Position numbers and translations under genes: made by a program
The notes under the pieces: model-generated
Told to the model about the DNA's origin: nothing
What the model saw: the letters and a program-made list of their open reading frames with translations, nothing else
The model's database searches: none
Shown: positions 1,922 to 41,130 of the stretch, piece by piece
Layout: each line of letters starts with the position of its first letter
Position numbering within the stretch: position 1 is the stretch's first letter
From: a virus
DNA: 41,130 bases
Reading direction: 5' to 3' (one strand)
IMG/VR virus record: IMGVR_UViG_3300019884_000003
Location: 1-41,130 of that record

Positions 1922-2637
1922 AAAAAGCCACCCTAAGGGAACCGCGCGAGGCTGTCAACCAGGGCTTTTGCAAATGAATTCCTCTCGACAAATAACTAAT
2001 TGTAGTGTCCGTTTTGTCTAAACGATCTTTCGAAATGTCCGATAATTATAAAAGTTTTGCTTCACAAACTAGTTATGTCCGAATTGAATTCTTTTGCGGC
2101 TAGTACTTTTGGTTGATTAAATTCGTTCCAGGCATGAAGTAACTAAGTCATGTCCGTTTTGTATGCTCTAAAGATCGTTAACGCAGGGTACAAATTACTT
2201 TCGAGTTCCTATCAAAACCGGACATACTAGGGCAGGAATTGAATAGCAATTCCGACCCCATTCTAATTCGAATTGAATTGCCTTATGAATTGCCTGGTGA
2301 AAGGCTATTGCATTCCCCTTGCTCTCTCCCTATAGTTCTACCTATAAGTGAATAGCGCAGCGAGCCACTCCGATAAGGAAATATGGAGTAGCCGGAAGTT
2401 GAGGGAAGCGCCACCGAGAAAAGATCCCGAACGCGAGTGCTGGTACCTAGCCAGTGAAAGTGAACCACGCGGATGCGGGCACAGATACGGTGCGGAACCC
2501 AAAAACGAAGCCCGGCGAAACACCTGATCCGAGAAACCTAGATCGCTGGCAAAGAGAAACAGAAACGCTCACCACCCCTCACAGTCCGGGTGCTGAGCGG
2601 CTAGCCCTGCGCCACGTAGGGCACAAAGGAGATCGCC
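1922..2637. other. Gene-free control region of about 700 bp
   Basis: No frame here has a credible ribosome site. The left part (1980-2290) is AT-rich with the TGTCCG cluster and an inverted repeat GGAATTG/CAATTCC near 2235-2253. The right part (2300-2630) is richer in GC and open for 76 codons from 2454, but that frame lacks a ribosome site and overlaps the next gene. The position between a minus-strand gene and the + strand genes suggests divergent control, perhaps an origin. Confidence 0.5.
2006..2224. promoter_or_regulatory. Five TGTCCG sites, probable operator cluster
   Basis: TGTCCG occurs at 2006-2011, 2036-2041, 2076-2081 and 2151-2156 on the + strand, and as CGGACA at 2219-2224. Three copies continue as TGTCCG(G)TTTTG and most are preceded by A or TA. 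The asymmetric repeated site in an AT-rich gene-free region looks like an operator array for a phage or host regulator. The first copy directly follows a 13-bp block shared with the ITR (414-426). Confidence 0.5.
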
Positions 2638-2904: not shown

Positions 2905-2918
2905 CTAGGGAGATCGCC

Positions 2919-3539
2919 ATGAACACGACCACCACCCGTAACGCCAACGTCGAAGACAACAAGCGTTACAAGCTCGCGAAGGTCATCGCGAAGGGCTACC
3001 TGATTGGTGCCCTGTCCATCAGCTTTAGCCACTTCATCCACGCGTTCAACAAGCTCGGCCTGTACGGGTTCGGCGCAATGAGCATGCCGATCGCGGTTGA
3101 CGGCCTGGCAATCTTCGGGGTGCTGCTACAGCACAAGAGCTTTGCCAAGGAAACCCGCACGATCGGCCGCTGGCTGCAATTGGTTTGTGGCTCGCTCAGC
3201 CTGGCAGTCAACATCTTCAGCGGATGGGGATCGCCTGGTGCGATGATCCAAGGCGCAACTTGGGTAATCATTTACATGATGCTTGAGTTGATCGTTTCGA
3301 AGATTCGCCTTGCTGCTCACGACCAAGCGGCAATTGACGCTCAGGCTGAGCTTGACGCTCAGGCCATCCTGGAAGCTGCTAGCGCTTGGATGCACGCTTG
3401 CCAGCACCCGACCACTTGCCAGAGTGCAGAGCAGTGCGCGACCAAGAACACTGCTGCTGACAAGCGTCGCCGGACGGTTAAGAGTAAGGCTCGCAAGGCT
3501 AAGGCTGAGCAGCGCGTGCTTGAGGGCATGATCGGCTGA
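2919..3539 (+). CDS. DUF2637/SpdB-like membrane protein
   Basis: A 206-residue protein with about four membrane spans (near residues 22-44, 50-68, 84-104 and 108-128) followed by an Ala/Lys-rich cytoplasmic tail. The order SFSHFIHAF, then MPIAVDGLAIFGVLL, then SLAVNIFSGWG, then a last span ending LELIVSKIR matches the DUF2637 pattern. That family is common on actinobacterial plasmids (SpdB-like spread proteins), mobile elements and phages. The tail has Cys at HACQ and TTCQ. ATG at 2919 follows GGGAGATCGCC. The gene forms its own unit, with the TTCTTTACAATTAG motif upstream and a strong terminator directly after. A membrane role in DNA movement or host takeover is inferred. Confidence 0.8.
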   Translation: MNTTTTRNANVEDNKRYKLAKVIAKGYLIGALSISFSHFIHAFNKLGLYGFGAMSMPIAVDGLAIFGVLLQHKSFAKETRTIGRWLQLVCGSLSLAVNIFSGWGSPGAMIQGATWVIIYMMLELIVSKIRLAAHDQAAIDAQAELDAQAILEAASAWMHACQHPTTCQSAEQCATKNTAADKRRRTVKSKARKAKAEQRVLEGMIG

Positions 3540-3549
3540 GCAAGGGAGA

Positions 3550-3576
3550 GGCACCCTTCGGGGTGCCTTTTCTTTT
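3550..3576 (+). terminator. Rho-independent terminator
   Basis: GGCACCC-TTCG-GGGTGCC with a stable TTCG tetraloop, followed by TTTTCTTTT. It separates the DUF2637 gene from the packaging operon. Confidence 0.95.
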
Positions 3577-3585
3577 GCCCACAAG

Positions 3586-3615
3586 TTGATCTTGTATTTG
3601 GCCTGGTGCTACACT
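3586..3615 (+). promoter_or_regulatory. Promoter for the packaging genes, probably leaderless
   Basis: TTGATC (3586-3591) and TACACT (3610-3615) are separated by 18 nt. The terminase small subunit ATG at 3625 lies 9 nt after the -10 box and has no ribosome site upstream, so the transcript would start at or next to the start codon. It sits directly after the terminator at 3550. Confidence 0.6.
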
Positions 3616-3624
3616 TCACGGCTT

Positions 3625-4089
3625 ATGGAGAGAATGACACCAGCTGTACGGGATGCCCTAATTACCGCGATAGCTTTAAGGCAAGGCACGGCTACTGAGC
3701 TTGCAGAACGCTTCAAACGGTCTGTGGCGTCACTGAAGCGCTTCGCCAGAGAGAACCACCAGGCGATAGCGCTAGCGGCTGAGCGTGGCTCTCAGCGGGC
3801 TACAGAGGGCACTGAGCCAACCCCCACGGAGTTGGATGAGCTGTGGATAACCAACAAGTTCGAGCGGCTCAAGCGCCTGCAAGATCTGGCCGAATTGCAA
3901 TTCCAGGATGCGGCGCACGGTGACCTTGTCGGCGCAGACCTGAGCACGGCGCTCAGGGAGTTTCGATCTTATCTAGCGCTGGCAGCAAACGAGCTAGGTC
4001 AACTTCTGCACCGTGGGTCCGGCGAGTCTGGCACCAACGAAATGCTCAATGTCAACATTGAGGGAATTGACATGGAGCAACTGCGTTAA
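3625..4089 (+). CDS. Terminase small subunit (probable)
   Basis: A 154-residue protein, the DNA-recognition subunit of the packaging motor. The N-terminal 45 residues read as a helix-turn-helix (TPAVRDALITAIALRQGTAT, then ELAERFKRSVASLKRFA). The remainder is helical, as in small terminases that form oligomeric rings. The gene lies directly ahead of the large subunit. The start at 3625 (MERMTP) is chosen because a -10-like box lies 9 nt before it. An alternative ATG at 3634 has GGAGAGA touching it with no spacer, and a TTG at 3586 lies in the promoter. Family assignment rests on the fold pattern and position. Confidence 0.8.
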   Translation: MERMTPAVRDALITAIALRQGTATELAERFKRSVASLKRFARENHQAIALAAERGSQRATEGTEPTPTELDELWITNKFERLKRLQDLAELQFQDAAHGDLVGADLSTALREFRSYLALAANELGQLLHRGSGESGTNEMLNVNIEGIDMEQLR

Positions 4090-17889: not shown

Positions 17890-20850
17890 ATGCCTAAGAA
17901 GCGAATCGGTGACGTATACCCATGGGATAGGTGGTATCCCCATGGGCTAGGTCCGCTTGCGCCACTTGGGTTCAGCTCTGGTGGCGGTACGCCTGCTGAG
18001 ATCACATTCCCAACTGTGCCGTTGCGCACCAAGGCAATGATTGCGCTAGCGCCTGATTTCACGCAGCCTTATTGGACATGGAATTGGGTAGACATAACCA
18101 AAGACACTGACGGTACCTCCATCGTTCGCTGGGAACAGCAAATAGATATCACCTACGGTGGCAGGGCTAACTCAGCTACGGCGGAAGCGTCGCTATGCGC
18201 ATTCAGAGCAACCAACGATCGGCGGTTCAGTAGGCGGAATCCCTATTCCCCTTACTACAACCAGCTTTCGGAGTACACACCTATCTGGATTCAACTGGAC
18301 TACGGTCAAGGATTTAAGGATAAATACTTTGGATTTATACATGATTTCGCTAAAGCGTGGGATACGCATCGCAGTGATCCTTACGTTGATCTCACTGCTC
18401 GTGGTCCGCTCCACCGAATTGGGAAAAGCAAGCCGCTAAGGTCACCCCTTTACCGCGCCATGGTAGGCGGCATTCCCCCTATGCAATATTGGGCGATTGA
18501 GGATGGTTCGGGTGCAACGCAATTTGGCTCAGCCATGGGTGGATCGCCTGGTACTCCTGAAGTAACCTTCGTCATTGGCGATGAACAGGAAGTAGTTGTT
18601 CCGGCCGGACACACTGGAATCATAGGGTCCGTGACATCAGCCGCACTTGGGCTAGCGTCGAAAATCAATATGCCCGTTGGTGTCTACACAGACACGGGAC
18701 GATGGGTAGTGCAAGGCGCTTTCATCTCTGACGACATTGATGATGGCGAACCGGCTATAGACATGCTGATGAACAATACCGATAACTACATCATCTCTGT
18801 GTCCGACGCGTTTGACTCAGGGGTTACACAGTCATTGATTGTGGAGCTATTCACTTCAGGGGATGACATCATCTTTATAGATTCCGTATTCTTTGATCGG
18901 AATCTAGTTAGTGAGCCAATGGCGATCGTGGTATCGCTTACCGATACAGGCGCTAGTGATGAGTTCACGGCGCGCGTGCTGGATATAAATGGGATCACAG
19001 TCGCAGAGATAACCACAACGGGTGTCGGGTACACCACGCCAGCAATCATCAGCGCTACAACGGCAGGCGGCACTACAGACGGACCAAGGGTAGGCGTTAG
19101 CCACGTCGGGATATTCACTAGCACGTTGTTTGATATCGACGTTGACTCTGTGACGATCGCTCAAGCGATGGGCGGTTACGACGGAGAGCTATCCATTCCT
19201 CGCTTGCGTCGCTTGAGCGCGGAAGAGAATATTCCTTTCTTCACAGCGGGATTAGATGAAGACTCCGCGCCATGCGGGCCACAGATACCCGGTAGTTTGA
19301 TTGACACGTTTAGGGCACCTGAAAAGGTAGATGGGGGAACGATATTCGAATACAAATTCGGCATTGGCTATAAGTCACACCATGAGTACACCAACCAAAC
19401 GGTTACGTTCACACTAGACGCGAATCTAGGCCAGATACGGGACTTGGGTAGTCCGGTAGATAATGATCTAGATTTCGTCAACCAGTGGACCGTTAGCCGT
19501 GTGAACGGAAGCTCTGCAACCGTAGCGGCACGCAAGGGTGAGGCAGGCGTAACGCTCACAGACAATGAATTGCTATACCCAGGAAGCGATACCGTTTCCG
19601 CGTATGACGACAACCAGCTTGAATCAATTGCGGCGCGCTACGGCAGGCGTTCAACGGTTGATGAGGATCGCTGGCCAGCAGTGAGCTTCCACCTTGCGAA
19701 GAATCCGGAACTGATTACCGCCTGGCAAGAGTTTCCGTTTGGCGGGAGACTGCAAGCGCTGAACGTATATGAGGAGGTAGGCAACACCACGCTTGACCAG
19801 ATTCACCGGGGACATCAGGAACGCTGGAATAGCTTGGTATGGGAGGTAACTCTCAACTGCGCACCTTCCGCTACGTACAACATCATGGAGCTTGATAACG
19901 CGGTCTACGGTCGGCTAGACAGCAATAGCTCAGTGCTGGTTGATGATCTAAGTGATTCCGCTATGAGTTTCATGGTTGACACAGCGGATACAGCAGAAAT
20001 CTGGACAACCGATTCCGCAGAGTTCCCGCTAGACATAGAGCTGTACCCCGGTACCGGCACAGCAATTGCATCAGGTGGCGAGACAATCCGAATCAGCAGC
20101 GTCGCATCCTTCGCTATAGACACGTTCACCCGTAGTGAAACTGACCAGTGGGGAACCATGGACACGGGGCAGGTATGGGCATTGTTCACGGTAGGAGGTG
20201 CCCTAGCTGACTTCGATGTGTCTGGCGGGGTAGGTACGATGGTTGTGGATGGTGCCAACGAGTATCGCGTCGCCATCCTCAGTGATATTGAGGCTAACCG
20301 GATACTGAACCCAGAGGTTGCAGTCACATTCACTACTGGTGTTCCAAACGTTTCAGGTGGCTCAATCGAGCCTGGCAATTTGATTCTCCGGTACGTGAAC
20401 ACCACTAACTACTACCTCTGTCGCATTGAGGTGACCACGTCGGAATTGGTCAACATCAGCATTCACAAGCTAGTGGAAAACGTCGGAACCTTGCTCAGTG
20501 CAACGGTTACCACGACTATCACATACACGGCTCAGGCACTGCGTGTGCACTTCAATGCCTACGGGAGTACGTTGCGCGCTAAGGTGTTTGATCCGGCTAA
20601 GACTTCAGCGCACATGGTGCCTTGGCAGGTTACCGCGACAGATACTACCTTCCAAAACGCTGGCGTTGTCGGCATACGCACGGGGGTAGCGTCAGGAAAT
20701 CTAGATGTACCGATTACGCTGCTGTATGACAGCTTTGAGGTATCCACACCTCAGATATTCACAGTGGATGAGCGGTCATTGAATGGAATTGTCAAGGCGC
20801 ATAAGGCGGGAACGGTTGTGCGCGTAGCTGATATGGTGGTGATCCTATGA
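17890..20850 (+). CDS. Large minor tail protein with lectin-like domain
   Basis: A 986-residue baseplate or tail-tip protein, the longest gene in the window. The first 220 residues (IALAPDFTQPYWTWNWVDIT, then YFGFIHDFAKAWDTHRSDPY) resemble the tail-tip hub region of actinophages. Residues about 275-440 form a beta domain with a TDTGASDEFTARVLDINGIT segment. Residues about 740-950 begin IDTFTRSETDQWGTMDTGQV, the DTFTR...WGT.DTGQ.W signature of concanavalin-like jelly-roll domains that bind sugars. The C-terminus returns to a hub-like segment (VDERSLNGIVKAHKAGTVVR). Nucleotides 20108-20183 within the lectin signature are duplicated exactly at 34876. Likely a host-binding protein. Confidence 0.85.
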   Translation: MPKKRIGDVYPWDRWYPHGLGPLAPLGFSSGGGTPAEITFPTVPLRTKAMIALAPDFTQPYWTWNWVDITKDTDGTSIVRWEQQIDITYGGRANSATAEASLCAFRATNDRRFSRRNPYSPYYNQLSEYTPIWIQLDYGQGFKDKYFGFIHDFAKAWDTHRSDPYVDLTARGPLHRIGKSKPLRSPLYRAMVGGIPPMQYWAIEDGSGATQFGSAMGGSPGTPEVTFVIGDEQEVVVPAGHTGIIGSVTSAALGLASKINMPVGVYTDTGRWVVQGAFISDDIDDGEPAIDMLMNNTDNYIISVSDAFDSGVTQSLIVELFTSGDDIIFIDSVFFDRNLVSEPMAIVVSLTDTGASDEFTARVLDINGITVAEITTTGVGYTTPAIISATTAGGTTDGPRVGVSHVGIFTSTLFDIDVDSVTIAQAMGGYDGELSIPRLRRLSAEENIPFFTAGLDEDSAPCGPQIPGSLIDTFRAPEKVDGGTIFEYKFGIGYKSHHEYTNQTVTFTLDANLGQIRDLGSPVDNDLDFVNQWTVSRVNGSSATVAARKGEAGVTLTDNELLYPGSDTVSAYDDNQLESIAARYGRRSTVDEDRWPAVSFHLAKNPELITAWQEFPFGGRLQALNVYEEVGNTTLDQIHRGHQERWNSLVWEVTLNCAPSATYNIMELDNAVYGRLDSNSSVLVDDLSDSAMSFMVDTADTAEIWTTDSAEFPLDIELYPGTGTAIASGGETIRISSVASFAIDTFTRSETDQWGTMDTGQVWALFTVGGALADFDVSGGVGTMVVDGANEYRVAILSDIEANRILNPEVAVTFTTGVPNVSGGSIEPGNLILRYVNTTNYYLCRIEVTTSELVNISIHKLVENVGTLLSATVTTTITYTAQALRVHFNAYGSTLRAKVFDPAKTSAHMVPWQVTATDTTFQNAGVVGIRTGVASGNLDVPITLLYDSFEVSTPQIFTVDERSLNGIVKAHKAGTVVRVADMVVIL
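20108..20183 (+). repeat. 76-bp direct repeat, tail-gene copy
   Basis: An exact 76-bp match to 34876-34951. It begins CCTTCGCTATAG and ends GGTATGGGCATT. It encodes the DTFTR signature of the tail protein's lectin-like domain, and the reading phase is the same at both places. Confidence 0.95.
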
Positions 20851-32034: not shown

Positions 32035-32388
32035 ATGTACCTGTTCAGGAAATCTCGCGTAAGACGAAGAGCACAAGAGACACTCCGCGAGATAGCAAAG
32101 CAAGGCAGGGTGTTGCCCCCGGCGCTCGGGACTGTGCCCTGTGAGTACATATCGCTTCCGGCGCTTGACATACCCAAGCTAGCTCAGGCGTATATAGCTG
32201 GCATGGAGGCGGAAAAGACGGATGACTGGTGCCGCTGTGAATGGATTGTCCACCCGGATGACGTCGACAAGCCCAAGGGCAGCAGGCGAAAGCGGCGCGG
32301 TGATCTGGCGTGGGATTGCCCGCTGCATACCAAAGAGGGATTCCTGATCTACTTCTTTGAATGGGTGTTCACCCGTGGCAAGAATTGA
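32035..32388 (+). CDS. Hypothetical protein with Cys/His site
   Basis: A 117-residue basic protein. DDWCRCEWIVHPDD and LAWDCPLHTKEGF contribute three Cys and two His that could bind zinc. The N-terminus is a basic helix. The final third is aromatic (LIYFFEWVFTRG). It overlaps the next gene's start. Function unknown. Confidence 0.75.
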   Translation: MYLFRKSRVRRRAQETLREIAKQGRVLPPALGTVPCEYISLPALDIPKLAQAYIAGMEAEKTDDWCRCEWIVHPDDVDKPKGSRRKRRGDLAWDCPLHTKEGFLIYFFEWVFTRGKN

Positions 32389-33007
32389 TTGGGATGAGCT
32401 AGAGCACATCGAAGACGGCAGTCAAGGATGGCGTGTAGCGCTTGCACAGGATGGTACGGGTCATGGCCTAGCTGACCTATCAGGCGTATACGTACCTGGT
32501 GAGGGAGACAACCCTCAGGCGTTCGTCATTGGGGAAGCGCCTGGCGCTCAGGAAGAGATGTTGCGCCGTCCCTTCGTTGGTCCATCGGGAAGGGTTATGC
32601 GTGACCTGATGGCCATTGCTGGTTTGTATTCCGCCTACACGCACAAAGGAGGGGAACCAAATTGCTGGCTTACCAACGTAGTCAAGTTCCGTCCACCACG
32701 GAACCGCACGCCGACTCCGATGGAAATCCGCGCTGCTCGTCCATACCTGGCTATGGAATGGGCCGCTGTAGGAAAGCCACGCGTGATTGTTCCCGTTGGG
32801 GGAACGGCGCTAACGGCCATCACGGGCAAGCCGCAATCGATTCTGATTGCAGCTGGAAAGCTCCACAAGTATCGAAGTAGGGAAGGGATTGAGCTTTGCA
32901 TTTGGCCGATGGTGCACCCCTCCTACGGGATACGCGGGGGTCCGGCAGTGCAAGAGATACTTGAGAAAGACTGGGAAACGTTCGCCGAATGGAGAAACAG
33001 GCAGTGA
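32375..33007 (+). CDS. Uracil-DNA glycosylase, family 4-like
   Basis: A 210-residue repair enzyme removing uracil from DNA. Motif A is VIGEAPGAQE (51-60), followed by RPFVGPSGRVMRDL. NVVKFRPPRNRTPTPMEI forms the next conserved block, and the second motif is HPSYG (181-185). The Fe-S cysteines of many family 4 enzymes are not apparent; only two cysteines were found. The start is uncertain: GTG at 32375 overlaps the preceding gene; an in-frame TTG at 32357 is possible. Family-internal subtype not resolved. Confidence 0.82.
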   Translation: MARIDWDELEHIEDGSQGWRVALAQDGTGHGLADLSGVYVPGEGDNPQAFVIGEAPGAQEEMLRRPFVGPSGRVMRDLMAIAGLYSAYTHKGGEPNCWLTNVVKFRPPRNRTPTPMEIRAARPYLAMEWAAVGKPRVIVPVGGTALTAITGKPQSILIAAGKLHKYRSREGIELCIWPMVHPSYGIRGGPAVQEILEKDWETFAEWRNRQ

Positions 33008-33186
33008 AATATTCCGTGCTACTGACTACATACGGCGCACATCTAGAGGTACTTAAGACATCACAAATTACTATTGATGAGGCGGACATGTCGTGCGGCC
33101 TCGCTATAGCCGTGTCGGCTACGGAAGCGCCACAAGTGCGTGATGTACGGGTAGAGATAAGGAAGCTTGATGCTACGGCTACGTGA
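33004..33186 (+). CDS. Hypothetical 60-residue protein
   Basis: GTG at 33004 overlaps the glycosylase stop (GTGA) with GGAGAAACAGGCA upstream; an in-frame ATG at 32989 would overlap further. The sequence alternates strands (KYSVLLTTYGAHLEVLKTS, QVRDVRVEIRKLD). It overlaps the polymerase start by 17 nt. Function unknown. Confidence 0.62.
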   Translation: MKYSVLLTTYGAHLEVLKTSQITIDEADMSCGLAIAVSATEAPQVRDVRVEIRKLDATAT

Positions 33187-34354
33187 CCGCTTAGCCGGAC
33201 AGCCAATAAGATTTCATTGTGCTGAAACGAAATCGGACCTTCGTGAGGTGGCGGAGTTCATCCGCCGCCACCGCGCGTTAGGCATGGACACGGAATCAAC
33301 TGGATTGAACAGCTATCAGCCAGGCTGGCAGTTGCGCACTGTCCAATATGGGGATGACGTTGACAGCTACGTTGTCCCCCAACGGTTTCGTAAATTCATC
33401 GCTTGGTCTATGCAGCAGCCAGTCAAATGGATTGGCCACAATGGACCACACGACATCCGTTGTATCGATGCGCACCTAGGCTTTGATACGGGGGTTGTCT
33501 GCGCCGGGGAAACCTACCTCCCCTCACACCATGCCGACAGCCGGAATCAACGGGAAGGCGGAATAGGCCACGGGCTAAAGGAATTGGCAATCGCGCTCAT
33601 CGATCCTAGCGCCGGTAAGTGGGAGATCGAGTTAAAGCGCGTGTTCAAGACAATCAAGGTGCCGATGCCTGGTGAGTTCTTTAAATCGGGACCAAGGAGG
33701 GGGCAGCCTAAGACCCGCAATGCCAAGCTCGGTGAGGGTTGGGGGTTGATTGACCCCATGCATCCGGCCTACATCGCTTACGCAGCAGCTGATCCGATCC
33801 TCACCTATCGCGTATGGCGGAAGTACCAACCGATTGTGCAAGAGTTCTATGACCTTTATGAGTTCGATCACAAGGTACAGATGGCATGCGATCTCTTGCA
33901 GCGCAGAGCTATCCGCCTTGACGTGCCGTACACCCGCGCATTGAGTGACGCGTTCACCACCAAGGCGGAACGTTATATCCAGCGGGCAAAGGAGTACGGA
34001 TGTACAAACATCCACAGTGGACGGAAGGTAGCCGCAACGCTGCTCGACCTAGGCGCTCGGCTGAAAGATCGCACTCCTACCGGCCAATACCAAGCCACTG
34101 ATGGCATCCTGCGCCGACTAGCCAAGGCCAGCAGTGATCCGGATATCAAGGAATTCGTTCGCTGTGTGCTGGTGGCAAAGCAATTGCTCAAGCGCCGGGT
34201 GAACTACACAGAAGCAATGCTGAGAGAGATGGATAGCGCCGGACGGGTTCACCCGAGCATCAACAGTCTAGGTGCGCGTACAACGCGTATGAGCGTCAGC
34301 AGGCCACCGCTACAGCAGTTGCCGACAAAGGACAGAGATGATGAGGAGGGGTAG
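33170..34354 (+). CDS. polA: DNA polymerase family A, N-terminal piece (exonuclease and thumb)
   Basis: A 394-residue fragment with the 3'-5' proofreading domain and the start of the polymerase domain. Exo I is Asp40-x-Glu42 in GMDTEST, Exo II is Asn91/Asp95 in HNGPHDIRCID, Exo III is Tyr204/Asp208 in YAAADP. It then follows the thumb and reaches HPSINSLGARTTRMS...RPPLQQLPTKD, the conserved lead-in to motif A. After Asp388 only RDDEEG follows before a stop, where an intact polymerase would continue with a segment such as SAAIRRCLIAD. That segment begins the second piece at 34957. ATG at 33170 follows AAGGAAGCTTG. Confidence 0.9.
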   Translation: MLRLRDRLAGQPIRFHCAETKSDLREVAEFIRRHRALGMDTESTGLNSYQPGWQLRTVQYGDDVDSYVVPQRFRKFIAWSMQQPVKWIGHNGPHDIRCIDAHLGFDTGVVCAGETYLPSHHADSRNQREGGIGHGLKELAIALIDPSAGKWEIELKRVFKTIKVPMPGEFFKSGPRRGQPKTRNAKLGEGWGLIDPMHPAYIAYAAADPILTYRVWRKYQPIVQEFYDLYEFDHKVQMACDLLQRRAIRLDVPYTRALSDAFTTKAERYIQRAKEYGCTNIHSGRKVAATLLDLGARLKDRTPTGQYQATDGILRRLAKASSDPDIKEFVRCVLVAKQLLKRRVNYTEAMLREMDSAGRVHPSINSLGARTTRMSVSRPPLQQLPTKDRDDEEG

Positions 34355-34356
34355 CG

Positions 34357-34584
34357 ATGAGCATGGGATTCAAGTTAATCCGCGAGATGACCCAAGAGGA
34401 AATGATTGAGGAACTACTTGCAGGGCAGAAAGCTCTGATGGCTGAAATGGATATGGACACGCTGAAGAAATACATAATCCACTACCGTCAAGGGCAGGTA
34501 ACCAAGAGGTTGGTTGAGGAAGCTGACCTATCTCCTGAGGCATACCCGATTGGCTTTCTAGGATTCGGGGAGGATCGTCAATGA
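34357..34584 (+). CDS. Hypothetical protein inside the polymerase split
   Basis: A 75-residue helical, acidic protein with AGGAGGGG ahead of its ATG, the strong ribosome site created at the end of the first polymerase piece. No motif recognised. It overlaps the next gene by 4 nt (ATGA), so the two inserted genes are translated together. Confidence 0.72.
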   Translation: MSMGFKLIREMTQEEMIEELLAGQKALMAEMDMDTLKKYIIHYRQGQVTKRLVEEADLSPEAYPIGFLGFGEDRQ

Positions 34585-34970
34585 AAATGAAATCCAGACT
34601 GCTGCCGTTCGCCAGCATCACTGAACGGCCATACGATCAGACACTACTGAAAGATGTTGACTGGTATACGATCCGGCCAACCTACGTACAGATGGCTGAT
34701 CTACACCTGACACAAGGTCATTGCAACATAGAGGGATTGTTCGGTAAGCGTTACTCGACTGACCCACATATCCGTGTAGTTCATTGGGATGAGCGGCTGT
34801 ACGTGGAAGACGGGCACCACCGTTTAGTAGAGCAGGCATTAGCCCGCAACGAAGTAGCGCTAGCCCGCGTGTTCACCTTCGCTATAGACACGTTCACCCG
34901 TAGTGAAACTGACCAGTGGGGAACCATGGACACGGGGCAGGTATGGGCATTCCCGTATGAAACTACTTAG
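34581..34970 (+). CDS. ParB/nuclease-like protein with tail-gene-derived end
   Basis: A 129-residue protein. Residues about 1-98 contain IRVVHWDERLYVEDGHHRLV followed by EQALARNEVALARVF, the DGHHR signature of ParB N-terminal-like domains found in DNA-binding or nuclease proteins. From nucleotide 34876 the reading continues, in the tail gene's own frame, as IDTFTRSETDQWGTMDTGQV and ends AFPYETT. Thus the normal end appears to have been replaced by an in-frame copy of a lectin-domain segment. Confidence 0.72.
   Translation: MKMKSRLLPFASITERPYDQTLLKDVDWYTIRPTYVQMADLHLTQGHCNIEGLFGKRYSTDPHIRVVHWDERLYVEDGHHRLVEQALARNEVALARVFTFAIDTFTRSETDQWGTMDTGQVWAFPYETT
34876..34951 (+). repeat. 76-bp direct repeat, polymerase-region copy
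   Basis: An exact copy of 20108-20183 in the tail gene. It forms the last part of the ParB-like gene and holds a possible GTG start (34903) for the second polymerase piece. The flanks on either side are unrelated to the tail gene. Confidence 0.95.
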
Positions 34971-35805
34971 CAGCGCAGCGATTCGCCGCTGTCTGATCGC
35001 CGATGTCGGCAAGGTGATTCTCACTGCTGACTTCAACCAGATCGAGCTACGTATTGCCGCTGGCCTGGCTGGCGAGCAAAGCCTGATCGATGCTGCCAAG
35101 CGCGGAGAGCACCTTATTAAGGCCAGCGCGGTCAAGCTATTCGGTGCCGACTACAACCCTGATCAGTACCGCTACACCAAGAACGTTACCTACGGGTGGC
35201 TATTCGGTGGCGGCGCAAAGACGCTGTCAGATCAGGCGGGTATCCCCTTCGCTGATGCAACTAAAATCGTTGGGGAGTACCAGGAAGCGTTTCCCGCTCT
35301 CACTGCATACAAGCGCAGAGAGCAGGAAGCGATCCTCAAGAGTGCGCTCACGCCAATGGAATACAAGCTGTATCGCACGCTGCGCTCTCAGATGTACGCC
35401 TGCCGGTATGACAGCAAGGAAGGGCAACTAGCTAGGGCGGCAATTCAAATCCAGATCAAGCGCTTGCTGTATCGGAAGATTGGCTATGCGATCACGCCGT
35501 TCGGTCGGCGCTTGATTGTAGATGCGCACAAGGCATACAGCGTCGTGAATTACAAAGTCCAGTCGACTGCTGCTGACCTGATGAAGCACGCGCTATTAGA
35601 TGTCATGGCAGACAAGGAATTAGCACCAACGGTGCTGCTGCTCATCCATGACGAAATCCTTGGGCAGGCTAGGAAGAGTGAGGCGGAACACATCGCACAA
35701 CGCTACGCCGAAGTCATGAGCCGAGAGTTCATGGGAGTACCGATTGCGGCTAGCGGCAAGGTATACGGCAAGTCATGGGGTCACGGATACATGGAGGGGA
35801 AATGA
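34957..35805 (+). CDS. polA: DNA polymerase family A, C-terminal piece (palm and fingers)
   Basis: The 282-residue catalytic part. Motif A is ADFNQIELR (metal-binding Asp25). Motif B is YRYTKNVTYGWLFGG (Lys75, Tyr79, Gly80). Motif C is LLIHDEI (His231, Asp232, Glu233). All catalytic residues are intact. ATG at 34957 gives MKLLSSAAIRR, but the ribosome site is weak (GGGGCAGG at about -20). A GTG at 34903 within the copied 76-bp segment is in frame and adds 18 residues. With the piece at 33170 it could form a working two-chain enzyme. Confidence 0.88.
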   Translation: MKLLSSAAIRRCLIADVGKVILTADFNQIELRIAAGLAGEQSLIDAAKRGEHLIKASAVKLFGADYNPDQYRYTKNVTYGWLFGGGAKTLSDQAGIPFADATKIVGEYQEAFPALTAYKRREQEAILKSALTPMEYKLYRTLRSQMYACRYDSKEGQLARAAIQIQIKRLLYRKIGYAITPFGRRLIVDAHKAYSVVNYKVQSTAADLMKHALLDVMADKELAPTVLLLIHDEILGQARKSEAEHIAQRYAEVMSREFMGVPIAASGKVYGKSWGHGYMEGK

Positions 35806-36107
35806 CAACGTTCAACGCACGTATGTTAGAGGGGCTGACACTCGATGCTGTTAAGGCCAAATCGCTTGCTCAGCATATGCGACTGGGTGAGGCTAACTCT
35901 CACTTCAATCCTGAAGTCTCAGCAGCCCAACGCCTAGCTACGTTGGGGGAATGCGTCGGCGCTGCGTTCAAGTATGGCGCACTAGAGCCGAACAACCCCA
36001 TGCTACAGGATCATTTGCTAGCGCTGGCAGCCTATGCGGCTACTTGGGCGGAACTACTTGACAAGGAAAATCTCTCGAACAAATTTGAATGGCTGGTGCG
36101 CCAATGA
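35802..36107 (+). CDS. Hypothetical 101-residue protein
   Basis: ATG at 35802 overlaps the polymerase stop (ATGA), preceded by GGAGGGGAA. Helical throughout (FNPEVSAAQRLATLGECVGA, then LALAAYAATWAELL). It shares its frame boundary with the next gene as ATGA. Function unknown; small helical proteins of this kind are common downstream of phage polymerase genes. Confidence 0.72.
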   Translation: MTTFNARMLEGLTLDAVKAKSLAQHMRLGEANSHFNPEVSAAQRLATLGECVGAAFKYGALEPNNPMLQDHLLALAAYAATWAELLDKENLSNKFEWLVRQ

Positions 36108-36538
36108 GTTTCGAGCGTATAGAGGTACTGACCAAGGAGCACTTTGATACCAGGCGCTACAACGGTCACCGAATCCATATGAGCGCTGCGTTGTCGGCAA
36201 GGCTCATGCAGCGGTACCAACCACCAGCGGCAGAGCGCGAGATAGACAAGCTACGAGATATCCTATACGGCGCACCATTGCTCTATCAGCTGATGGGGAT
36301 TCCGATCATCAACGATGTCGGGATAACCGATGAACTGCAATGGATTCTGGTGGACCCTACCGGCGAGGAAGTCGAGAGGGGGAGCGTTACACCTGATCAC
36401 GATGAAACCAAATGCACTGGCGAATATAAAAATTGTCAGTGTGTATGTCCGGCGTGCGTCGCCGAACATGTGAGGAGGTTCACGCATGACGACGCTTCCG
36501 CGCGGATCGTTCAAGGCGCTAATGGCACGCGTACCTAA
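36104..36538 (+). CDS. Hypothetical protein with Cys cluster
   Basis: A 144-residue protein starting MSFERIEVLTKEHFDTRRYN with ATGA overlap to the previous gene. It has a helical middle and ends with TKCTGEYKNCQCVCPACVAE, five Cys and neighbouring His suited to zinc binding. Its last 50 bases overlap the resolvase gene. Function unknown. Confidence 0.72.
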   Translation: MSFERIEVLTKEHFDTRRYNGHRIHMSAALSARLMQRYQPPAAEREIDKLRDILYGAPLLYQLMGIPIINDVGITDELQWILVDPTGEEVERGSVTPDHDETKCTGEYKNCQCVCPACVAEHVRRFTHDDASARIVQGANGTRT

Positions 36539-38144: not shown

Positions 38145-40478
38145 ATGGTGTACCAGCGTTCGGCGCTCCCGAAACACCGAACCGACGATAACACACCAGG
38201 GGTCAACGTCCCTAGCCCTGTGGCACTGGGATGGTCGCCCTTCCATACAGCAGCAGAGGATTACTTGCAAGCAGGCTTCCTTCCCATTCCTTTGCCATCG
38301 GGTAAGAAGTTCCCACCCCCCAAGGGAGTACCCAATGATCTGGACTATACCGAGACAACCTTAGAAGAGTGGCTTGCTGGCATCTATCGCAACGGGGACA
38401 AGCAACGGATTGACAAGGGAGCAAAGAACATTGGCACCATCGTGCCGGATGGCGTTGTCGTGTTTGACATTGACGGGCCATCGGGCAAGGAAACGCTTGC
38501 AGAGCTTGAAAATTCGCTAGGCGCACTGCCGCCTACGTGGATGACATTCCGTGGTGACGTCGACAGATATCACCTCTGGTTTGTCACACCAGGTGGGCTA
38601 ACGTGGCCGGGTAAGTTAGGGGCTGGCCTTGATATCATTTATCGTCATTACCGCTATGTGGTTGTGCCTCCGTCTGTACATCCTAACGGTAATCAATACC
38701 GATGGATCACAAACTCACGAGGTGGCGCAAGGCTTTTGCAGTATCTGCCAGCGCCCGATGAATTCGCGGACTTGCCCGAAGCGTGGCTTAGTCTCACCAA
38801 CGGCAACGGCTACGTTCGTCGCGATCGTGCGGAAGTGGATGCGCGCTTGTGGATTCAAGAGCACGGCGCTGGATCGCCCTGCCCACAAATGAAAAGGGTT
38901 GTACTGACGCATCTTAGGCTGATGCGCAAGCACGCTGATCTAGGTGGGCTACACGATGCGATGGTTAACGCTGTGTGGTCAGTGTTGGCTGAAATTAGCC
39001 AGGGACACAAAGGGGGACACGCAGCGTTAGCTAAGCTCAAATCCACATTCACCATACAAGCTGATGAGTCCGGCAGGCGCGATCCTGGTGCACCTGAGGC
39101 GGAATGGGCTAGGGCATGCGTTGGTGCCATTGAGAAAACAGCGATAGAGCGCGTGCGCCAAGGTGACCCGTGCGAGGTAGAGGAAGCGGAACGAGGTCAA
39201 GACCCTGCAAGGTTTTTCGATACCAAGCATGGACTCAAGGCGCGCTCATTACGCAAATCTGTTGAGGCTACAGGACAATTGGCTGTCGGCCCTGGTGGAA
39301 TGATTTACCGGCACACCGATGGACTATGGGTGCCTGATGGTGAGGCAGAGATCTACCGGCGCACTGAATCCCTTCTACGCCAACGATGGAGGCCAGCGCA
39401 CGCTGAGAATGTGCGGAAGGTAGTCGAGCACCGTGAGCCGTTCATCACTGATGACGGACAGGATTTGCGTTACCTGAACTTGCCAAATGGTTTGCTGGAT
39501 TGGAAATCCGGCAAGCTGTATCCGCATAATCCTTCTGTAGTAAGCACAATGCGTATCCCTGTTGAGTGGGATGACGACGCTGACTGCCCTGATATCGATG
39601 AGTTCTTTAGGCAGGTGTTCCCTGGTGACGCGATCGAGCTTGCATACGAGATCCTTGGATACATGCTTTACAACGACAACCCTTTACACAAAGCCATTCT
39701 CCTATACGGATCAGGCCGTAATGGGAAGGGCACATTTATCAGATTGGCTCGAATGCTTGTGGGGCACAGCAACATCTCAGCCGTCACCCCTCAAGCATTG
39801 GACTCTAGTCAGTTTTCGTCAGCGCAGCTTTACGGGAAGTTGGCAAATCTCGTTGGTGACGTTGACCCTCGCATCTTCAAGAGCACAGAGCAATTCAAGC
39901 AATTAACTGGTGGTGACTACATGATGGCGCAGCACAAGCACAAGAACCCTTTCACGTTCAGGTGTCGCGCGCTCATGGTCGCTGCGTTCAACGCGCTTCC
40001 CCGGACAGCGGACACCACAGAGGGTTTCTTCAGCCGTTGGGTCGTTGTCCCGTTCAGCGCCTTTTTCCCGGCTGGCAAAGCTGACACCCTCCTCATAGAC
40101 AGGCTCACCTCTCCTAGGAATTTACAGGGGCTACTGAGGGGCGCGGTTGGTGGTCTACAGCAAGTCATGCGACGTGGGTCGTTCGCCATTCCGCCATCCG
40201 TCGCCAGCGCCACTGAGCGTTTCAAGATGGAGGCTGATCCAATGCGAGGCTTCATCGAAGAGAGAGTTAGCTTTGAGGGCCGAGCGTTTACAGCGCGCAC
40301 GGAGATCTACGCGGCGTATGCGACATGGGCAGCGATGAATGGATTTCATCAGATGTCAGCTCAGCGATTCTATGAATCATTTACTGCGGCGTGCGTTGAC
40401 ACAAAGCAATCTGTAATGCGCGCAGCTATATTGCACGGGGTAAATGGGTATCGGGGAATTACCTTAGGGCGGCAATAG
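38145..40478 (+). CDS. Prim-Pol/helicase fusion (primase-helicase)
   Basis: A 777-residue replication protein. Residues about 30-200 are a bifunctional primase/polymerase domain: catalytic acids in VVVFDIDG (Asp108, Asp110), His143 in DRYHLWFV and a conserved PPSVHPNG (175-182). A middle D5-N-like region follows. The C-terminal half is a superfamily 3/D5-type helicase with Walker A GSGRNGKGT (522-530) and a Walker B-like LVGDVDPR. From codon 622 the gene lies in the right ITR, so its last 156 codons are repeated in reverse at 653-1121. It follows AGAGGAGAGGAA; ATG at 38145 is chosen for this site. Confidence 0.92.
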   Translation: MVYQRSALPKHRTDDNTPGVNVPSPVALGWSPFHTAAEDYLQAGFLPIPLPSGKKFPPPKGVPNDLDYTETTLEEWLAGIYRNGDKQRIDKGAKNIGTIVPDGVVVFDIDGPSGKETLAELENSLGALPPTWMTFRGDVDRYHLWFVTPGGLTWPGKLGAGLDIIYRHYRYVVVPPSVHPNGNQYRWITNSRGGARLLQYLPAPDEFADLPEAWLSLTNGNGYVRRDRAEVDARLWIQEHGAGSPCPQMKRVVLTHLRLMRKHADLGGLHDAMVNAVWSVLAEISQGHKGGHAALAKLKSTFTIQADESGRRDPGAPEAEWARACVGAIEKTAIERVRQGDPCEVEEAERGQDPARFFDTKHGLKARSLRKSVEATGQLAVGPGGMIYRHTDGLWVPDGEAEIYRRTESLLRQRWRPAHAENVRKVVEHREPFITDDGQDLRYLNLPNGLLDWKSGKLYPHNPSVVSTMRIPVEWDDDADCPDIDEFFRQVFPGDAIELAYEILGYMLYNDNPLHKAILLYGSGRNGKGTFIRLARMLVGHSNISAVTPQALDSSQFSSAQLYGKLANLVGDVDPRIFKSTEQFKQLTGGDYMMAQHKHKNPFTFRCRALMVAAFNALPRTADTTEGFFSRWVVVPFSAFFPAGKADTLLIDRLTSPRNLQGLLRGAVGGLQQVMRRGSFAIPPSVASATERFKMEADPMRGFIEERVSFEGRAFTARTEIYAAYATWAAMNGFHQMSAQRFYESFTAACVDTKQSVMRAAILHGVNGYRGITLGRQ

Positions 40479-41130
40479 ATTTAACCCCCCGGGGGTGGGG
40501 GCAGGTATAAGGGGTGGGGTCAGACTATATTGCAATATGGAGGTAACCTCTAATATGCAGTATGGTTTGGCCCTACCTTTTGACCCCACGTCCACCCTTA
40601 TTAATTCTTGTTGCGCTGCAACACATTCTTTCGGTCCTTACAATGAATTAAAATAAATCAATGTTTGGTTTTGTTGTATTCGAGACATGGAAATATTTCG
40701 ATCGCTACAATTAGTTACTCGTCACTAAAAGTAATTGTGACGGTCGGTAATCAAAAAAGTCCAGTGACGATCTTCAATCTTTCGGCCATCGGGCACAGAG
40801 TTACACTAATAAAATCCCACCGTCCAATGTGGACACAGCGCCTTATACATTTTGCAAATAGGTTCTGACCAGCGCTAATGCACTGTCCTATCCGGACCGA
40901 ACAGAGATTGATATTAATCGATACGTATGGATATACACCACCCGCCAGCGCGAGCATCGACCCACTGAAGCGTTTGAATATAGAGCCCCGTCACTTTAAG
41001 TTACTAATTACGCTCCGTTATTTTAATCAATTTAAATATAAACTAAATCAACTTAATCAATAAAAAATTCCATCAAATTCAAACAAAAATAAATTTAAAT
41101 AAATGAATTAACACAATACGACATATACGT
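40010..41130. repeat. Right inverted terminal repeat, about 1,121 bp
   Basis: Reverse complement of 1-1121. It begins inside codon 622 of the primase-helicase gene and continues 652 bases past its stop into an AT-rich end without genes. Ends read ACGTATATGTCG at the left and CGACATATACGT at the right. Confidence 0.95.
40491..40519 (+). other. G-quadruplex-like tract, right ITR
   Basis: G5-T-G5, 9-nt loop, G4-T-G4 on the plus strand, 12 nt after the primase-helicase stop. It is preceded by a C6 run with which the first G-run could pair, so quadruplex and hairpin forms would compete. Confidence 0.5.

Follow-up and report, generated by a model that had tools for sequence, protein, structure and literature searches.

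How does a phage replicate its DNA with a family A polymerase whose gene is broken in two just ahead of motif A? The window, that is the whole stretch of 41,130 bases analysed here, is an IMG/VR virus record carrying terminase, portal, head and replication genes, and the initial annotation had proposed that its polymerase gene is divided by a 638-bp insertion. The division is real: both open reading frames (Table 1) match polymerase profiles, and 11 further IMG/VR contigs have the same split. We consider it highly probable that these phages inherit a two-chain family A replicase, the C half of which would be translated by coupling and would assemble non-covalently with the N half. Together the two pieces provide the exonuclease and palm/fingers domains of a family A (Pol I type) enzyme with motifs A, B and C all intact. 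As had been noted, the catalytic residues are complete, with the exonuclease motifs (DTE, HNGPHD and YAAAD) in the N piece and the polymerase motifs (ADFNQIE, RYTKNVTYGWLFGG and HDE) in the C piece. The N piece matches Pfam DNA_pol_A_exo1 and positions 5-137 of DNA_pol_A, the C piece positions 139-380 of the latter, while TIGR00593 is covered from 457 to 646 by the N piece and from 648 to 887 by the C piece; on this coverage no part of the enzyme has been lost. Profile alignment places the cut at about residues 588-592 of Taq and 686-688 of E. coli Pol I (residue numbers obtained via chain offsets), in the loop joining the first part of the palm to motif A, ahead of the motif A aspartate. When modelled alone with AlphaFold, the C piece (pLDDT 88) is predicted to take the Pol I fold by itself, its top PDB matches being Taq and Klenow Pol I (E about 1e-15).

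Table 1. Coordinates of the features discussed (positions in the window unless another contig is named).
Feature	Position	Strand	Remarks
Polymerase N piece, 394 aa	33170-34354	+	ATG 33170, TAG 34354; 3'-5' exonuclease, thumb, start of palm
H, 75-aa helical protein, most constant gene of the slot	34357-34584	+	Slot homologs in relatives
P, ParB/VapB-like protein, 129 aa	34581-34970	+	PF23719 E=4e-14, PF08857 E=0.004
76-bp stretch identical to tail-gene positions 20108-20183	34876-34951	+	Self-BLAST
Polymerase C piece, 282 aa	34957-35805	+	MKLLSSA head, then motifs A (ADFNQIE), B (K75) and C (HDE)
Gene annotated R67 dihydrofolate reductase between polymerase pieces, environmental phage	L082 (MW202697) 2282-2488		

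Excising 34334-34971 does restore one open frame (...LQQLPTKDSAAIRRC...). However, with gene edges at TAG 34354 and ATG 34957 the interval is 602 bp, so that the 638 bp are merely a frame-restoring cut and not a removable insertion. Each piece has its own start, as first described, but the gene edges are slightly different; ATG 34957 is the most likely start of the C piece because relatives retain both this start and the MKLLS head.

The identical junction is found in 12 contigs: the window, L003 (detected in a first scan) and, by wider scans, L005-L009, L033, L038, L039, L062 and L069. The 11 relatives each come from a separate metagenome, all members of the clade are metagenome contigs with no cultured member known, and three other contigs (L063, L068 and L070) hold the N piece only, at their ends. 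L003 is 80% identical to the window in the N piece and 77% in the C piece, while N-piece identity in the ten other relatives is 49-65%. In every contig a stop of its own ends the N piece and a start of its own opens the C piece, and the N-to-C frame relation varies among contigs. Across the clade the N piece ends in QQLP-T-[KA]-[DN] followed by a short, mostly acidic tail (LQQLPTKD plus RDDEEG in the window; REVDAE, REEDAE and RESDE are further examples); at the start of the C piece, a head approximating M-[KR]-LLS (MKLLSSAA and MRLLSADT, for instance) precedes the IRRCLIAD region. This amounts to 2-14 non-polymerase residues in the tail and about 7-12 in the head. Intact phage polymerases display QQLPSGDWTIRR at the split place and lack both the acidic tail and the M-K/R-LL head. 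The search for intact polymerases among relatives that had been advised was carried out and returned none within the clade, the intact forms encountered being at most about 34% identical. The closest of these, from Microbacterium phage Barnstormer, Arthrobacter phage TforTroy and Mycobacterium phage Peaches (about 32-34% identical), share the domain order but are encoded by a single gene.

Both pieces are kept as separate genes in the relatives, and they are under equal, strong purifying selection, with a dN/dS of about 0.1. Between the window and L003 the ratio is 0.092 for the N piece and 0.106 for the C piece, values that are only approximate because dS is about 1.55; between L008 and L009 it is 0.069 and 0.083. 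The occurrence of the split in 11 independent contigs confirms that it is shared far beyond chance, and its retention at the same residue in twelve phages marks it as a stably inherited arrangement, neither an intron nor a sequencing error. An assembly chimera or a dead gene is extremely unlikely: the 76-bp tail-gene copy within P and a 1121-bp inverted end repeat make local assembly faults conceivable, but for the split itself a chimera is refuted by the eleven contigs from other metagenomes, and dN/dS near 0.1 on either side speaks against decay. On sequence grounds the two-chain polymerase that had been called plausible is thus well supported by the conserved split, the dN/dS values and the intact catalytic residues.

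What lies between the pieces is, by comparison, inconstant. The interval of 602 bp in the window measures 311, 799, 734, 943, 1183, 1076, 487, 266, 751, 401 and 1599 bp in the 11 relatives, and its gene content also differs in each of them. The proposal of a new type of gene-splitting element is not supported, the split being constant while the insert is not. An intron or other spliced RNA, whose removal would yield a single polymerase, had been suggested as well and is very unlikely. Excision restores the frame and introns often target phage polymerase genes, yet the sequence, length and genes of the insert vary in every relative, and the N-piece stop and C-piece start are present in all contigs. 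Furthermore, removing everything between the polymerase pieces would lose the conserved tail and head, the new ends that the flanking pieces bear. The intron covariance search recommended at the outset was run with Rfam and gave no match at E<=1 in 33000-36200, nor at E<=0.1 in six relatives. Translational bypass was not credible either for an insert that is variable and reaches 1599 bp. Rejoining at the protein level by a split intein is known for fractured phage genes such as MIJ3 PolB (PMC6892783), but the few non-polymerase residues of tail and head are too short for IntN and IntC halves and the slot proteins tested have no intein or HNH family, which leaves this option practically negligible. 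The earlier observation that the interval holds no intein, homing nuclease or transposase was upheld, and the tested slot proteins, which came from the window and six relatives, included no HNH, GIY-YIG or LAGLIDADG family.

Both genes first described in the interval, one for a 75-aa helical protein (H) and one for a ParB/VapB-like protein (P), are present. P shares 4 bp with the end of H and 14 bp with the start of the C piece. Among the slots of the relatives it occurs only in L003, where it is 55% identical and the only gene between the pieces; a role of P as the splitting element was rejected with its presence in just 2 of the 12 slots. H has homologs at E<=1e-24 in the slots of 8 of the 11 relatives and a weak one in L038 (E 3e-4), hence in 9 of 12 slots with the window, or 10 counting L038. 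It is missing from the slots of L003, whose contig is a fragment, and of L069, where it was not found anywhere in the 37.7-kb contig. AlphaFold predicts a helical hairpin (pLDDT 81); no family was found for H in Pfam, PHROGs or PADLOC, with NCBIfam matches at noise level only, and a profile built from a two-row alignment matched only its own source contigs when run against viral contigs. A defence role for H or P was discarded, with no PADLOC match. The slot of L039 holds a YspA/cpYpsA SLOG protein (PF10686), a look-alike of which lies upstream of the polymerase in L006, and further residents include several proteins without a family. Because the length and genes of the insert vary among contigs, the slot gains and loses small genes, a behaviour shared with other early phage regions.

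These observations raise the possibility of a three-part polymerase in which H is an obligate subunit or an assembly factor bridging the two chains. H-like genes occupy 10 of the 12 slots, none was found outside the slot in split-clade contigs, and H stays while other slot genes come and go. Nonetheless, H is absent from the slot of the closest relative, L003, and from the whole of L069, and it diverges faster than the polymerase pieces; we regard such a role as rather unlikely.

For the two-chain replicase, we propose that both halves are translated separately off one message, the C half being made by termination-reinitiation at the end of the small gene that happens to lie ahead of it. In the window, L003, L005, L007, L009, L033, L038, L039 and L069, the preceding ORF ends 4 to about 20 bp inside the C piece. 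Translational coupling may not hold throughout the clade, since L006, L008 and L062 have no clear overlap with an upstream gene. A sigma-70-type promoter was looked for in 32900-36200 and not found, and in most contigs there is no clear ribosome-binding site or promoter for the C piece. The halves would then join without a covalent bond into one active polymerase, the acidic tail and the M-K/R-LL head possibly helping them to assemble. The gap has evolved into a slot with turnover of small genes, H being its most constant resident. We infer coupling and non-covalent assembly from the C-start overlaps, from the lack of a clear ribosome-binding site or promoter, and by analogy with the split replicase gp43A/gp43B of the T4-like Aeromonas phages 25 and 44RR; binding of the two chains is suggested by this analogy together with conservation. 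According to PMC2988022, which cites Petrov et al. 2010, the gp43A and gp43B chains co-purify, as for phage 25, and are active in polymerisation. These proteins differ from the present case in being family B enzymes, and what separates their genes is a seg homing endonuclease or an untranslated spacer, with no changing small genes. The same paper describes the split nrdA of phage Aeh1 (mobE) and the T4 topoisomerase gene 60 (mobA), likewise essential enzymes made as two chains after an interruption; there the interruption is a homing endonuclease, whereas none was found in the window interval.

In a tree of the joined pieces and intact homologs, a quick tree with some long branches, the split polymerases of the twelve contigs fall into a single, fully supported clade, sister to intact actinophage polymerases, which shows that their cut arose once. 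Split polymerases form a second group in the tree, comprising MEP401, MW202697 and Alcaligenes phage QDWS535, and an AU test rejected forcing both groups into one clade (p=9e-7). The second group is cut right at motif A, about 16 residues further downstream than the window clade, and the interval contains a 77-aa gene in MEP401, the R67-annotated gene in MW202697 and a bare overlap, TAATG, in QDWS535. The separate groups and differing cut sites therefore point to two independent cuts within about 16 residues, each with a changeable interval. In the Methylophilales phages MEP401 and MEP402 (Zobellviridae), the polymerase was published as ORF13 and ORF15 with ORF14 between them, an arrangement left unexplained although an intron was considered (PMC10580990). 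An intron is argued against there too, because MW202697 has another insert and QDWS535 has none. Homology between MEP401 gp14 (ORF14) and H was rejected, the best score of 4.8 bits (E 1.4) being within noise.

A Pol I-type replicase may hence run as two chains over long phage evolution, in members down to about 49% identity, and the same polymerase region was cut independently at least twice. MEP401 would turn from an unexplained single report into part of a pattern that makes the testable prediction of non-covalent assembly and no splicing, and the split clade would offer natural templates for split polymerases. A bolder reading appears unlikely, namely that phage family A replicases repeatedly and stably adopt a split just ahead of motif A that leaves a standing slot, here with H as third subunit or assembly factor.

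Several further features were observed. C-piece residue 79 (35191-35193), at the O-helix position occupied by F667 in Taq, is Tyr in the window and mixed Tyr/Phe in the clade; such a mix predicts that close relatives differ in dideoxynucleotide discrimination. The N piece is preceded by a uracil-DNA glycosylase gene (32357-33007), and in L018 (2402-4852) a uracil-DNA glycosylase is fused to the N terminus of a family A polymerase in a single ORF. In L020 (about 2911-4001) and L021 (about 2923-4001), intact family A polymerases carry an in-frame insertion of ~1.1 kb right after motif A, with no Pfam intein match; the insertion is either an intein that has diverged or an additional domain.

Within P, the 76-bp direct repeat occupies the 3' end, immediately ahead of the C-piece ATG; P and the tail-protein gene read it in the same frame, and L003 lacks the matching stretch in its P gene. 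The copy may stem from recent recombination or from a minor assembly fault, the split being unaffected either way. The 1121-bp inverted repeat of the window is exact (1-1121 and 40010-41130). In the related contig IMGVR_UViG_3300049586_000042 (L083/L084), an exact inverted end of 127 bp has its inner edge at the same ...GGTGTCC site, within the primase/helicase gene, and contigs of several other relatives end close to this site, which suggests that the clade has real terminal inverted repeats rather than one artefact.
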